From the IMG/VR virus record IMGVR_UViG_3300020406_000006, positions 1 to 49,148 of that record: a DNA stretch of 49,148 nucleotides. The stretch is one strand, 5' to 3'. Shown in pieces: positions 36,330 to 49,148 of this stretch. The position numbers were made by a program, and so were the translations under genes. This DNA is from a virus. Numbering within the stretch: position 1 is the stretch's first letter; every line of letters starts with the position of its first letter. The notes under the pieces were generated by a model. That model did not search any database, had not been told where the DNA came from, and was given only the letters and a program-made list of their open reading frames with translations.

Positions 36330-36692
36330 ATGGATGAACGATTACAAAAAGCATTAGATTTTTCAAACTACATGGTTACTCTTAATAACCAAAAGAGAGT
36401 GCTAAAAGAACAGTATTTTGAAAACAGAATTCATTACTTTAATGGTGGACAATTTTCTGTCACAAATGAATTGTTATCTTTTGTAGGATTGCTATGCGAA
36501 AAAGGTGACACAACTAATATCCCTATCATTGACGATAACGATGTTCCTGTGAAAATACCTGATCTCAATGTGTTCTTTGATGACATCATGGATGTCTACT
36601 TTCAATCTTCAAATGAATATCACGCAGAGTATGAAAAAATTAGAACTAAGAGAAAAGTTTCTGGGTTGGTAGACTATGACGAAGACAAATAA
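36330..36692 (+). CDS. Conserved-type small phage protein, 120 aa
   Basis: This acidic, largely helical protein begins MDERLQKALDFSNYMVTLNN. It has a central VTNELLSFVGLLCEKG, then an Asp-rich VFFDDIMDVYFQSSNEY. It has no membrane segment. I recall similar MDERLQKALDF proteins beside fibre genes in cyanophages, with unknown function. It overlaps the next gene by 17 bases, so it is tied to the accessory cluster. A fibre-assembly role is possible from position only. Confidence 0.7.
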   Translation: MDERLQKALDFSNYMVTLNNQKRVLKEQYFENRIHYFNGGQFSVTNELLSFVGLLCEKGDTTNIPIIDDNDVPVKIPDLNVFFDDIMDVYFQSSNEYHAEYEKIRTKRKVSGLVDYDEDK

Positions 36693-37536
36693 AGGTGCAT
36701 TAATCTTTGCTAGAAACAATGCTCAGATTGATTATATAAAACAAGCACGTTTTTCTGCACAAAGAATAAGAAAACATTTAGATATCCCAACTAGTATTGT
36801 TACTGATAGTGTTGAATATTTGCAAAACACTTACAAAGACTACAATGAAGTATTTGATCAAGTAATAGAAGTACCATACAAAACAGAATTTACAAATAAA
36901 AAATATTTTGACGGTAGTGGAGTGTTCAAACACCTACAATTTAAAAACGATCTGCGTACAAAAGCATACGAACTTACTCCTTATGATGAAACTATATTAC
37001 TAGACAGTGATTATGTCATTGCAAATGATCTATTTAAAAATTGTTTTGCACAAGAACATGATTTCTTAATATACAAAGATGCAAAGGACCTAACAAATTT
37101 TAGAGACACAGATGAATTTCAGAAAATCAGTGATACAAGTGTTGACTTTTATTGGGCAACTGTAATATATTTCAAAAAAACAGAACAAACCAAGATATTT
37201 TTTGACCTTACACAACACATACAAGAAAACTGGGATCACTATAACAGCATATTTCAAGTCAACAGGGGCATATTTAGAAATGATCATGTGTTTAGTATAG
37301 CAATACACATAATGAATGGTTATCAAAAGGGTGACTTTGCACATAAGTTGCCTGGAATAAAATATTATACAGCAGATAGAGATATCTTATGGGATCTTGA
37401 AGATGATAATTTTTTCTTTTTGTTAGAGAAACAAAATCATCTGGGAGAATATACACCTTTGCGTATCAAAGGTAGTAGTGTTCATGTAATGAACAAGTTT
37501 AGTTTAAACAGAATCATAGATAAAGGAGAAGTGTAA
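36676..37536 (+). CDS. GT-A glycosyltransferase-like protein (GT8 type), 286 aa
   Basis: The N-terminal strand GALIFARNNAQIDYIKQARF (7-26) and the metal/nucleotide-sugar motif DSD (110-112, in ETILLDSDYVIAND) follow the layout of GT8-like retaining transferases, which bind Mn2+ and a nucleotide sugar through DxD. Residues 145-215 hold a conserved-looking block (DFYWATVIYFKKTEQTKIFF). It is a diverged paralogue of the protein at 37856-38689. The start lies inside the end of the 120-aa gene. The acceptor and sugar are unknown; cluster context suggests virion or cell-surface glycans. Confidence 0.75.
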   Translation: MTKTNKGALIFARNNAQIDYIKQARFSAQRIRKHLDIPTSIVTDSVEYLQNTYKDYNEVFDQVIEVPYKTEFTNKKYFDGSGVFKHLQFKNDLRTKAYELTPYDETILLDSDYVIANDLFKNCFAQEHDFLIYKDAKDLTNFRDTDEFQKISDTSVDFYWATVIYFKKTEQTKIFFDLTQHIQENWDHYNSIFQVNRGIFRNDHVFSIAIHIMNGYQKGDFAHKLPGIKYYTADRDILWDLEDDNFFFLLEKQNHLGEYTPLRIKGSSVHVMNKFSLNRIIDKGEV

Positions 37537-37724
37537 TGGAAATAATATGGGCTTTGATGTTGCAGGTATGCAGTTCGTTCGGATGCCAAGATCAAATGGT
37601 TGCAGAATTCAACACACAAGATAATTGCCACATAGCACAATGGCAACATGAACAAATTCCAACTGACGGTGATTGGAAAAGTGTTGAGTATATATGTATA
37701 CCAAAAGGGAGCATAGGTGCATAA
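37536..37724 (+). CDS. Small Cys-containing protein, 62 aa
   Basis: It begins with a hydrophobic stretch (EIIWALMLQV, 2-11) and has cysteines at 12, 17, 31 and 54, so it may be exported or membrane-linked with disulfides, or bind metal. The start forms a TAATG overlap with the upstream gene, with AAAGGAG as ribosome binding site, which supports a real gene. The stop is overlapped by the GTG start of the zinc-finger gene. No family is recognised. Confidence 0.65.
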   Translation: MEIIWALMLQVCSSFGCQDQMVAEFNTQDNCHIAQWQHEQIPTDGDWKSVEYICIPKGSIGA

Positions 37725-46998: not shown

Positions 46999-47873
46999 GT
47001 AGAATATTAATATGTGGCGACAGTAATAGTCTGGGCGAATGGGGGACAGTGATTCCTGGACCAGCTGTGGCAAACAATGACAATCCAGAGATATTCAAAC
47101 CATATAACAAAGAAGAATATTTAAAAGAACCTCATGCAAAACCTTTTAATGTAGTGTGGCCAGGGTTTGGTTATGAATTAGATCAAAAAGGTCATGCAAC
47201 AGTAAATTATAGCATAGGCGGTGGAACTAATATTGAAGCAATATTTAAAGTTGAAGAAGCACTAGGACTTGCTCCACCATTTACCAGTCCTGTATTTTAC
47301 AGTCCTGATGTTATAATACTAATGCTTACAGAGCCTATTAGAGATTTGACTCCACCACGTTGGCCTCCAGAAGCAGGTCTGAAAGACTTAGAAAAATATT
47401 ACGTGCAAAGAGATGAAGCTGTAAAACAAGCAACAAGTATAAAAGATTTAAATGATAGATTGTTAAAAATAATTTTTGATGGAGCTCAAAAAATATACAA
47501 TGAAACAAACATTCCTTGGATAATAATTGAAGGTTGGGGAAAATGTCCTGCTATTGACAACTACACTTTCATAAAATATATCCACAAAGATTGGATGTCT
47601 AAATTACTAGGACATGAGATACCATTAATGAGCAGTTGGCCAACTGTTAATTTATTACGCAGAGCAAGACCGGATCTTGCAGATGCTAGTGCAACAAAAT
47701 TTTTACAAAAACATTTACCTATAGAGCAAAAGGAAACAGAATTTAAAAAAATAGTTGACGATTATGAACGCACAATAAACACCATGCAGGAACACAAACA
47801 GTTTCCAGACAACTGTCATCCTGATAGATTCATACATCAACAACTTGCAAAAGAATTGGAACCTTATGTATGA
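46995..47873 (+). CDS. SGNH/GDSL hydrolase-like protein, 292 aa
   Basis: Block I is LICGDSNSLGEWG with Ser10 in a true GDS. NYSIGGGTNIEAIF (71-84) gives the Gly/Asn motif. DVIILMLTEPIRD near 107-119 replaces the usual GxND strand. NCHPDRF near 273-279 has the block V Asp-x-x-His (D272, H275). The start overlaps the dehydrogenase stop (ATGA) and the end overlaps the next gene. It has no signal peptide, so it should act inside the infected cell. Acyl-group transfer or removal on the glycan is inferred. Confidence 0.78.
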   Translation: MSRILICGDSNSLGEWGTVIPGPAVANNDNPEIFKPYNKEEYLKEPHAKPFNVVWPGFGYELDQKGHATVNYSIGGGTNIEAIFKVEEALGLAPPFTSPVFYSPDVIILMLTEPIRDLTPPRWPPEAGLKDLEKYYVQRDEAVKQATSIKDLNDRLLKIIFDGAQKIYNETNIPWIIIEGWGKCPAIDNYTFIKYIHKDWMSKLLGHEIPLMSSWPTVNLLRRARPDLADASATKFLQKHLPIEQKETEFKKIVDDYERTINTMQEHKQFPDNCHPDRFIHQQLAKELEPYV

Positions 47874-48549
47874 TATATGTTTCATAAGTTATAACGAACC
47901 TGACGCTGAGGAAAGATACGAAAAGTTATTAAAACGTTTCCCTAGAATCAAAAGGGTACACGGCGTCAAAGGTATTCATCAAGCTCACATCACTGCCGCA
48001 AAGAAATGCTCAACAAAAATGTTTTGGGTAATAGATGGTGATGCTGACTTGTTACCAGAATTCAATTTGGATCATGTTGTGAACGAATATGATTTAGATT
48101 GTGTCCATGTTTGGCGTAGCCGAAATCCTATCAACGATTTAGTCTATGGTTATGGTGGCGTAAAACTCCTACCAAGACGACTAACCATGAACGTAGACAT
48201 AAACAGCAGTGATATGACTACATCAATATCAGATAGGTTTAAGGCTATGCCATTCGTGAGTAATGTTACTAGTTTTAACACAGATGAATTTAGTACTTGG
48301 AAAAGTGCTTTTAGAGAATGTGCAAAGTTAAGTAGCAAAACAATTAACAGACAGGAAGAAGGAGAAACTAATGAAAGACTTAAAATATGGACTACTAGAG
48401 CTAATGGAAGATTTTGTGAATTTGCGATTCGAGGTGCTAATGCTGGTATGGAGTTCGGCCTTTCTGATGGGGTTGACCTTCGGCTAATAAATGACTTTGA
48501 CTGGTTACGTCAACGTTTTCAAATGGATGAAATGAATGATACCGTTTAA
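47866..48549 (+). CDS. Glycosyltransferase-like protein (GT2-type), 227 aa
   Basis: ATG 47866 begins MYDICFISYNEPDAEERYEK, close to the N-terminus of the 39273 protein. RIKRVHGVKGIHQAHITAAK (28-47) and DGD at 57-59 (WVIDGDADLLPEF) complete the shared core. It is about 70 residues shorter than the paralogue, lacking its C-terminal helical part. I chose 47866 over an upstream TTG at 47845, because GGA lies 6 bases before the ATG and homology starts there. It overlaps the upstream gene by 8 bases and the next by 14. The sugar is unknown. Confidence 0.75.
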   Translation: MYDICFISYNEPDAEERYEKLLKRFPRIKRVHGVKGIHQAHITAAKKCSTKMFWVIDGDADLLPEFNLDHVVNEYDLDCVHVWRSRNPINDLVYGYGGVKLLPRRLTMNVDINSSDMTTSISDRFKAMPFVSNVTSFNTDEFSTWKSAFRECAKLSSKTINRQEEGETNERLKIWTTRANGRFCEFAIRGANAGMEFGLSDGVDLRLINDFDWLRQRFQMDEMNDTV

Positions 48550-49148
48550 AAGGATTCAGAAACTAGGACATACAAATATGTTAAACAAAAAACTGTTTAA
48601 TGTAAGCTGGATCCTTGGACGTTTTTGTAACTATGATTGCAGTTATTGTTGGCCCTATGCAAGAAGTAAAACACTTGATCATAGACCCTTTGAAGTTTAC
48701 ACAAGAACAATAGATGAAATAAAACGTCAAGCAAAAGCAAATGGATTTGATCAGTTTCATTTTAGTTTCAGTGGAGGCGAACCAACTACATACAAAAAAT
48801 TTATAGATCTAGTTAATCACTATGAGGACTTTGAAAGTGAATACCTAAGCATACACATGACGAGTAATTGCAGTCCAGGTAAGCGTTGGTGGAAACGCTG
48901 GCTCGATGCAACACAGTTTTTAGATAGAAGAAGTATTACAGCAAGTTTTCATGCAGAATTTGCCGATGAAAAAGAATTTGGTGATAAACTTTTATATTTA
49001 CAGGACAATGATGTCCTTGTAACAATCAATCAGGTAATGGTGCCTGAACATTGGGAGGAATATTATGAACGAAGTAGACGTTTCAGTGATAGGGGCCTTC
49101 ATGTTACACTCAAGCCTCAGTCTGATCCTACTGCTAGTTTTGTCGTGG
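48536..49148 (+). CDS. Radical SAM protein, N-terminal part (runs off window)
   Basis: The frame is open to the window end (204 codons). It has C31-N-Y-D-C35-S-Y-C38 followed by WPYARSK, and SGGEP with the GGEP at 80-83 (HFSFSGGEPTTYKKF). Unlike the other two radical SAM proteins there is no twitch domain before the barrel, so it belongs to a different subgroup. ATG 48536 overlaps the upstream stop. ATG 48578, with AGGA 10 bases upstream, is the alternative. RSITASFHAEFAD near 139 lies in the barrel. A C-terminal auxiliary domain cannot be judged. Confidence 0.88.
   Translation, partial: MIPFKRIQKLGHTNMLNKKLFNVSWILGRFCNYDCSYCWPYARSKTLDHRPFEVYTRTIDEIKRQAKANGFDQFHFSFSGGEPTTYKKFIDLVNHYEDFESEYLSIHMTSNCSPGKRWWKRWLDATQFLDRRSITASFHAEFADEKEFGDKLLYLQDNDVLVTINQVMVPEHWEEYYERSRRFSDRGLHVTLKPQSDPTASFVV

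Follow-up and report, generated by a model that had tools for sequence, protein, structure and literature searches.

An island of glycosyltransferase, radical SAM and SGNH-motif genes behind the fibre genes of an uncultured T4-like marine phage: a candidate glycan pathway

Results

Gene content and extent of the island

The window, i.e. the whole 49,148-nt stretch of IMGVR_UViG_3300020406_000006 analyzed here, comes from an uncultured T4-like marine phage. T4-type families in the phage genome include gp46, gp47, gp55, gp25, gp5 and gp6-type proteins, and the best cultured matches of its gp6 (approximately 35%) are found in Sinorhizobium phage Phosso and Agrobacterium phage Atu_ph07. The island encodes five glycosyltransferase-type, three radical SAM and three SGNH-motif proteins, one nucleotide-sugar dehydrogenase, one zf-CHCC protein and two unknowns (Table 1); gene calls and family evidence agree with the gene list of the original prediction. 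From 36676 onwards all neighbouring genes overlap or abut, including g4, which overlaps the genes on both its sides, and the sole exception to the predicted chain of overlaps is a 62-bp divergent spacer (45764-45825). Two genes inside the island, SGNH2 and g12, lie on the minus strand.

Tail-fibre/virion matches in PHROG cover 33901-35388; the following gene (35393-36283) has no PHROG match, and its family precedes GTa in 56 of 58 loci. No Pfam match was obtained for g1 and no family could be assigned to g6 in Pfam or PHROG, while g3 shows 35-40% identity in related islands and is undetected in distant ones. The window end cuts the island: the suggested search downstream of 49148 revealed about 14 kb more of it in a close relative (G001). 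Additional genes in the islands of relatives encode a HAD phosphatase, an NTP-transferase-like protein and further radical SAM proteins; each long record has between 6 and 10 radical SAM matches.

Table 1 Features of the island and its surroundings in the window
Feature	Coordinates	Strand	Evidence or remark
gp55-type late sigma factor gene	4322..5164	-	phrog_12791, 260 bits
Last two fibre/virion-type genes	33901..36283	+	Directly 5' of the island
g1, conserved 120-aa protein	36330..36692	+	Separates last fibre gene from GTa; precedes GTa in 58/58 testable loci
GTa, GT8-like GT-A glycosyltransferase	36676..37536	+	DxD invariant; glycogenin profile match
g3, 62-aa protein	37536..37724	+	Weak phrog_3766
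g4, zf-CHCC zinc finger protein	37717..37863	+	PF10276, E 7e-8, above cut-off; GTG start
GTb, GT8-like paralogue of GTa	37856..38689	+	DxD and glycogenin profile match
g6, 196-aa protein	38686..39276	+	Member of conserved 5' block; in 34/40 long loci
GTc, GT-A-fold glycosyltransferase	39273..40166	+	AlphaFold pLDDT 85; GT-A matches, Z ~10
rSAM1, N-terminal-twitch radical SAM enzyme	40166..41545	+	NF033640, 314 bits
SGNH1 (GESW...PHP..H)	41523..42446	+	Invariant Ser and His
rSAM2, N-terminal-twitch radical SAM enzyme	42446..43621	+	NF033640, 400 bits
SGNH2 (GCSFT...DGHP..H)	43618..44496	-	Invariant Ser and His
g12, GT-B-fold glycosyltransferase-like protein	44474..45763	-	Invariant SEK motif; AlphaFold pLDDT 82; GT-B matches, Z ~11
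Putative divergent late promoters	45779..45799		ATAAATA 45779 (+), TATAAATA 45792 (-); motif positions
NDP-sugar dehydrogenase	45826..46998	+	phrog_9148, 321 bits
SGNH3 (GDSN...CHP..H)	46995..47873	+	Invariant Ser and His
GTd, homologue of GTc, 5' of rSAM3	47869..48549	+	Sequence homology
rSAM3, cut by window end	48536..49148	+	PF04055; ~320 aa in relatives

Enzyme families

Two of the glycosyltransferases, GTa and GTb, are GT8-like: D110 and D112 of the DxD motif are invariant and the profile is similar to that of glycogenin (GT8; E 3e-5). Evidence for a GT-A-type fold or family was obtained for two more (GTc and GTd), and the fifth, g12, is of the GT-B type. Structure prediction, proposed originally as a check, gave a GT-A fold for GTc and a GT-B fold for g12. 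The matches of these two models indicate the fold, many glycosyltransferase families being tied; T4 beta-glucosyltransferase appears among the GT-B matches of g12 (Z 11.1) with other GT-B families scoring equally, and GTc has weak Foldseek similarity to the S-glycosyltransferases SunS/ThuS.

PF04055 was detected at three places in the window. As had been predicted, two of the three radical SAM genes encode twitch enzymes: rSAM1 and rSAM2 score above the curated cut-off of the N-Twi family NF033640 (170 bits) and contain CxxxCxxC and an N-terminal Cys cluster, with invariant cysteines. The closest match of the N-terminal domain of rSAM2 is the twitch domain of BtrN (E 1.4e-5). The copy of rSAM3 cut by the window end remains below the NF033640 cut-off (35.7 bits, core only); its full-length relatives have a Cys-rich, SPASM/twitch-like C-terminal region, so rSAM3 probably has an auxiliary cluster too. 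The closest solved relatives of rSAM3 are viperin-like (E 2e-4), and its identification as viperin was rejected since the similarity is confined to the core (40.7 bits versus a cut-off of 180). Frames of 828 and 858 aa, considered as one protein with two radical SAM domains, turned out to be two genes in the same frame with a stop between them. Fe-S supply genes were dismissed as a part of the system because the A-type carrier is too rare (2 of 8 long relatives).

The original prediction of a UDP-sugar dehydrogenase held with regard to the dehydrogenase family. The residues of the oxidation step (T108, K191, N195, C250 and D254) are invariant, also in comparison with E. coli Ugd. In UDP-glucose 6-dehydrogenase Tyr10, which is 98% conserved, acts in thioester hydrolysis, and Glu141 and Glu145 belong to the PEF-xxE motif (PMC4794789). 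The island enzyme has no equivalents of these three residues, GLGKLG and NPYLIAMG replacing GTGYVG and SPEFLREG, so the label of UDP-glucose 6-dehydrogenase (EC 1.1.1.22) is unsafe for it; the score against TIGR03026 (169 bits) is under the cut-off of 189.8.

The block I nucleophile Ser and the block V His (HP..H motif) are invariant in all three SGNH families, and for the block III Asn, SGNH2 reads WTN, and SGNH1 and SGNH3 read TEP. On motif evidence the three genes are putative SGNH-type genes, as claimed; hhalign of the SGNH2 and SGNH3 profiles with E. coli TesA was not significant.

Putative late promoters

The ATAAATA motif occurs seven times over both strands and six of these copies lie 10-70 nt before a start, versus 0.14 expected; their reading as late boxes is supported by the gp55-type late sigma factor gene in the window. 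Within the cluster late boxes serve only the divergent promoter, a weaker TTAAATA box being located at 36300, so the claim that the genes are served by late boxes was true of that promoter and otherwise a little generous. Judged by these motifs, the island would be expressed late.

Conservation and co-divergence

At least 591 IMG/VR contigs contain rSAM1. Among 50,697 records of the phage collection only two distant (28%) matches were found, no cultured phage being closer, and searches against phages by megablast (island) and by tblastn (GTc, GTb) gave no match. The order GTa-GTb-g6-GTc-rSAM1 is conserved, GTd lies at most 1.5 kb upstream of rSAM3 in 61 of 62 cases, and the dehydrogenase is present in 35 of 40 long loci. 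The island follows g1 in all 58 testable loci and a fibre-like gene in 56 of them. The check originally proposed, whether the set stays together in other marine phages, and the position right after the fibre genes are thus both supported across many viral contigs. Homologues of rSAM1 (37-40%) occur on four bacterial chromosomes, in Bacteriovoracia-type MAGs, beside ribosomal-protein and Obg-like genes and with no profile match to the island glycosyltransferases around them; they inform on the ancestry of the family, not on the host.

The island genes are under purifying selection, dN/dS being mostly 0.015-0.11, and dS between adjacent genes ranges from 0.05 to 0.7, as in cassette-like exchange. 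Divergence of the last fibre gene parallels that of GTa, GTb and GTc (Spearman 0.76, 0.85 and 0.87; 0 of 199 permutations as high) and not that of the dehydrogenase (0.12). Such co-divergence could stem from physical linkage alone.

Discussion

Proposed pathway

The island is probably a glycan pathway in the general sense. Tentatively, and with clearly less confidence, we favour the reading of a late-transcribed, soluble glycan assembly-and-editing pathway with a virion acceptor. In the order that we infer, the nucleotide-sugar dehydrogenase would supply an oxidised sugar, the GT-A and GT-B transferases would assemble a short glycan, the twitch-type radical SAM enzymes might oxidise or epimerise sugar carbons or alter them in another way, and the SGNH enzymes might add or remove acyl groups. 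The acceptor, preferably the fibre of the phage itself or a different protein of the virion, is the least certain part of the explanation; it is preferred because the pathway lies directly behind the last fibre gene, co-diverges with it and is devoid of membrane export machinery. A hydropathy scan indicated no multi-pass membrane protein among the window products and no flippase, polymerase or initiating phosphotransferase-like (Wzx/Wzy-type) protein in that part of the island which the window covers.

The same glycan pathway may instead alter host lipopolysaccharide or capsule, the change of receptor keeping out other phages or debris-binding progeny. We consider this possible, if doubtful. 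It is the role, as modification of the host O-chain, favoured by the authors who described the host-recognition clusters (HRC) of pelagimyophages (PMC7029224), in which radical SAM cassettes occur together with GT8-type transferases and UDP-glucose 6-dehydrogenase; it has also been proposed for lipopolysaccharide genes in marine phages (PMC5332604), and the cassette-like exchange resembles that of O-antigen loci. The late boxes, the co-divergence of the transferases with the fibre gene and the missing Wzx/Wzy-type proteins count against it, although the last of these is compatible with a host-surface target, as the glycan could pass to host lipid carriers and flippases.

The island might also be a loose collection of unrelated auxiliary genes with no joint product, and the dehydrogenase, which evolves independently, comes and goes between lineages together with SGNH1, SGNH3 and rSAM2. 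This is unlikely, since gene order in the 5' block and in the GT-rSAM pairs is maintained between lineages with glycosyltransferases up to 64-78% different.

The original suggestion of a modified sugar or a glycosylated peptide stands in its first half: a modified sugar is plausible given the resemblance of rSAM2 to BtrN, which oxidises an aminocyclitol (PMC9012708). A ribosomal peptide (RiPP or glycopeptide), e.g. a toxin or signal, as the product of the radical SAM enzymes and transferases is very improbable; SPASM/twitch enzymes often modify peptides, which also weighs against a virion glycan, and GTc weakly resembles SunS/ThuS, but the small-ORF search was negative (no conserved precursor, the largest families occurring in 12 of 96 loci scanned) and no peptidase or exporter was seen in the window. 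Glycosylation of hypermodified phage DNA, to which the T4 beta-glucosyltransferase match of g12 might point, hardly deserves credence given the equal scores of other GT-B families, the late position behind the fibre genes and the absence, among seven relatives with 75-200 kb of sequence (incomplete records), of a thymidylate-synthase-type hydroxymethylase. The soluble glycan pathway is favoured over both because no transmembrane machinery, conserved precursor peptide or pyrimidine hydroxymethylase was found in these searches.

Should fibres or the host surface be what it decorates, the island would show by what means abundant marine phages govern recognition and exclusion; it also provides candidate sugar chemistries of radical SAM, SGNH and dehydrogenase enzymes. 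The bolder proposal, that many uncultured marine T4-like phages glycosylate their virions by matched GT-A/twitch-rSAM pairs, with a radical-edited sugar unknown in viruses and a non-canonical dehydrogenase supply, is rather unlikely in its entirety.

Comparison with known systems

BtrN of the butirosin pathway shares with rSAM2 the twitch domain sequence, which is C-terminal in BtrN and N-terminal in rSAM2. KVP40-like Vibrio phages encode several radical SAM proteins related to rSAM2 (~20-25%), but no other gene of the island set was found by profile within ~10-12 kb of these clusters. The dehydrogenases in the sugar cassettes of Synechococcus phage Bellamy and Pelagibacter phage HTVC008M are 58% and 49% identical to that of the island, with replacements of the same type at the active site; their neighbours, however, are genes of the methyltransferase, carbamoyltransferase and NadE-like types, with no N-twitch radical SAM gene detected alongside. 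The environmental T4-like marine genome TARA_ERS488813_N000010 is similarly very rich in radical SAM genes, with 12 of them reported as Fe-S metabolism, yet in the part of that report available to us no link to glycosyltransferase pairs is drawn (PMC5332604).

The closest parallel is the pelagimyophage HRC, a published large variable island of T4-like phages with tail fibres, glycosyltransferases (GT8 being the most frequent type), UDP-glucose 6-dehydrogenase and radical SAM cassettes (PMC7029224). The window likewise presents a T4-like genome with a variable island adjoining fibre genes and encoding glycosyltransferases, a member of the UDP-glucose dehydrogenase family and radical SAM enzymes. 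With regard to the HRC borders, VrlC and gp14, a giant virion gene (phrog_10938) lies upstream, and the portion of G001 read downstream showed no gp14. In contrast to the HRC, the window phage is by its gp6 not a close relative of HTVC008M, and its island contains a conserved GT-rSAM block with a fixed order, long records showing 6-10 radical SAM matches each. This kind of island is known in outline from similar published ones (PMC7029224, PMC5332604), but the block described here has a much wider distribution and a much more regular order than previously reported.

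Organization and late signals of the island

The window is a single 49,148-base IMG/VR virus record whose left part carries T4-type genes encoding gp47/gp46-like nuclease subunits and the late sigma factor gp55, baseplate families (among them gp25, gp5 and gp6), a virion protein of 4,907 aa and, after it, tail-fibre and virion-type genes. A small protein encoded beside the gp46-like gene matches a PHROG labelled as NAD synthetase as well as homing endonucleases. In the island that follows the last fibre gene, neighbouring genes all overlap or abut, with the sole exception of a 62-bp divergent spacer ahead of the NDP-sugar dehydrogenase gene; on the plus strand a single apparent gap is filled by the zf-CHCC ORF.

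Coordinates of the features discussed in the window and in compared loci
Feature	Sequence	Coordinates	Strand
Small protein beside gp46-like gene	window	842-1264	
Last fibre gene	window	35393-36283	
Island	window	36,330 to window end	
zf-CHCC ORF (g4)	window	37717-37863	+
Middle segment, SGNH1-g12	window	41523-45763	
NDP-sugar dehydrogenase gene	window	45826-46998	+
GTd with extra N-terminal part	L014	6680-7735	
Hydrophobic 80-aa protein	L136	9757-10005	
Four rSAM2-like genes	L058, Vibrio phage K566	8705-15441	
Dehydrogenase cassette	L056, Synechococcus phage Bellamy	8042-13218	
Dehydrogenase cassette	L145, HTVC008M	2999-7146	

The motif ATAAATA occurs seven times when both strands are counted, and six of these occurrences sit 10-70 nt upstream of a start (0.14 expected). 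Two of them fall within the spacer ahead of the dehydrogenase gene, one on each strand, and serve both divergent genes. This placement, together with the presence of gp55, supports late expression as far as it can be read from the DNA.

Recurrence and gene order

Searches of IMG/VR found 31 loci with rSAM2 and 13 with g12, a glycosyltransferase-type gene, and the profile of rSAM1 confirmed at least 591 matches (591 of the 600 candidates listed). Gene content was counted over 40 loci, each 19 kb or longer: the glycosyltransferase genes GTa, GTb and GTc were each present in 39 and GTd in 38. The dehydrogenase gene occurred in 35 of these loci, and the conserved gene g6 and rSAM3 in 34 each. The order is likewise kept, GTc being found at most 1.5 kb upstream of rSAM1 in 73/78 cases and GTd within the same distance upstream of rSAM3 in 61/62, while upstream of GTa there is g1, encoding a 120-aa protein, in 58/58 and a fibre-like gene in 56/58. 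Long relatives contain 6 to 10 radical SAM matches each. Past the window end the relative G001 carries additional radical SAM genes along with genes for a HAD phosphatase and an NTP-transferase-like protein.

Transferases, radical SAM and SGNH-motif proteins

GTa and GTb are paralogues, and a profile built from both matches glycogenin (GT8) with an E-value of 3e-5. GTc is homologous to GTd. The model of GTc (pLDDT 85) matches GT-A enzymes with Z about 10 across the N-terminal 150-170 residues, and that of g12 (pLDDT 82) matches GT-B enzymes with Z about 11 over nearly its full length, many GT-B families being tied in the comparison. In L014, from a distant lineage, GTd is extended at its N-terminus by about 120 aa and stands directly ahead of rSAM1, not rSAM3.

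Both rSAM1 and rSAM2 belong to the N-Twi radical SAM proteins. At its N-terminus rSAM2 has a domain that resembles in sequence the twitch domain of BtrN (E 1.4e-5), an enzyme that oxidises an aminocyclitol (PMC9012708). The window end cuts rSAM3; its copies in relatives have about 320 aa with a Cys-rich region at the C-terminus. Three genes encode an SGNH-type nucleophile and HP..H motifs, exceptionless within each family; profile comparison gave no support for SGNH identity.

In one subgroup, L136 and 11 other loci encode a conserved hydrophobic 80-aa protein just upstream of rSAM1. Chromosomal homologues of rSAM1 (37-40%) adjoin ribosomal-protein and Obg-like genes in Bacteriovoracia-type MAGs (L060-L063). 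The Vibrio jumbo phage K566 has four clustered rSAM2-like genes and is a possible laboratory model.

The dehydrogenase

The dehydrogenase belongs to phrog_9148, is alignable with solved UDP-glucose dehydrogenases and retains Thr108, Lys191, Asn195, Cys250 and Asp254. The positions of Tyr10, Glu141 and Glu145 are occupied by Lys, Tyr and Met in the eleven members of the alignment (A4), that of Bellamy among them, and by Lys, Tyr and Gln in HTVC008M. Tyr10 has a role in thioester hydrolysis and is 98% conserved (PMC4794789). We infer that the chemistry of the enzyme with altered residues would differ. In the cultured marine phages Bellamy and HTVC008M the altered dehydrogenase stands beside carbamoyltransferase, NadE-like and methyltransferase genes, a cassette that is possibly uronamide-forming.

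Divergence within the island

For most genes dN/dS against the nearest relatives of the window was 0.015-0.11; it was higher, at 0.31-0.42, for the short gene g3, where the value is based on few changes. The dS was 0.05 for the dehydrogenase against 0.5-0.85 for SGNH1, rSAM2, SGNH2 and g12, a range suggesting that the middle segment SGNH1-g12 was exchanged as a block. In comparison with L004 and L005 the synonymous divergence of this segment differs about tenfold from that of the adjacent dehydrogenase.

Co-divergence was analyzed over up to 45 non-redundant loci. Over 37 loci, the last fibre gene shows co-divergence with GTa (rho 0.76), GTb (0.85) and GTc (0.87); with the dehydrogenase it shows none (rho 0.12, 26 loci). 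Linkage alone could explain the co-divergence of the fibre gene and the glycosyltransferases.

Proposed function and comparison with known islands

On the best reading, the island would encode a soluble pathway, active late, for making and editing a glycan. Because of the position of the island, the co-divergence with the fibre gene and the missing membrane machinery, we lean towards fibres or other virion proteins as the acceptor; the host envelope, which published work on such islands takes to be the acceptor (PMC7029224), comes a close second. For the readings as a RiPP system and as DNA modification the tests were negative, respectively a search of 96 loci for a conserved small-ORF family and a search of seven relatives for hydroxymethylase families.

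The literature found, partial in its coverage, contained no description of the ordered glycosyltransferase-radical SAM block, of the pairing of these genes or of the residues altered in the dehydrogenase. The pelagimyophage host recognition clusters hold the same kinds of gene as the island, and a published T4-like environmental genome carries 12 radical SAM genes. By gp6 the window phage belongs to a different lineage from HTVC008M, and the conserved, ordered glycosyltransferase-radical SAM block is a feature that sets it apart from that phage.
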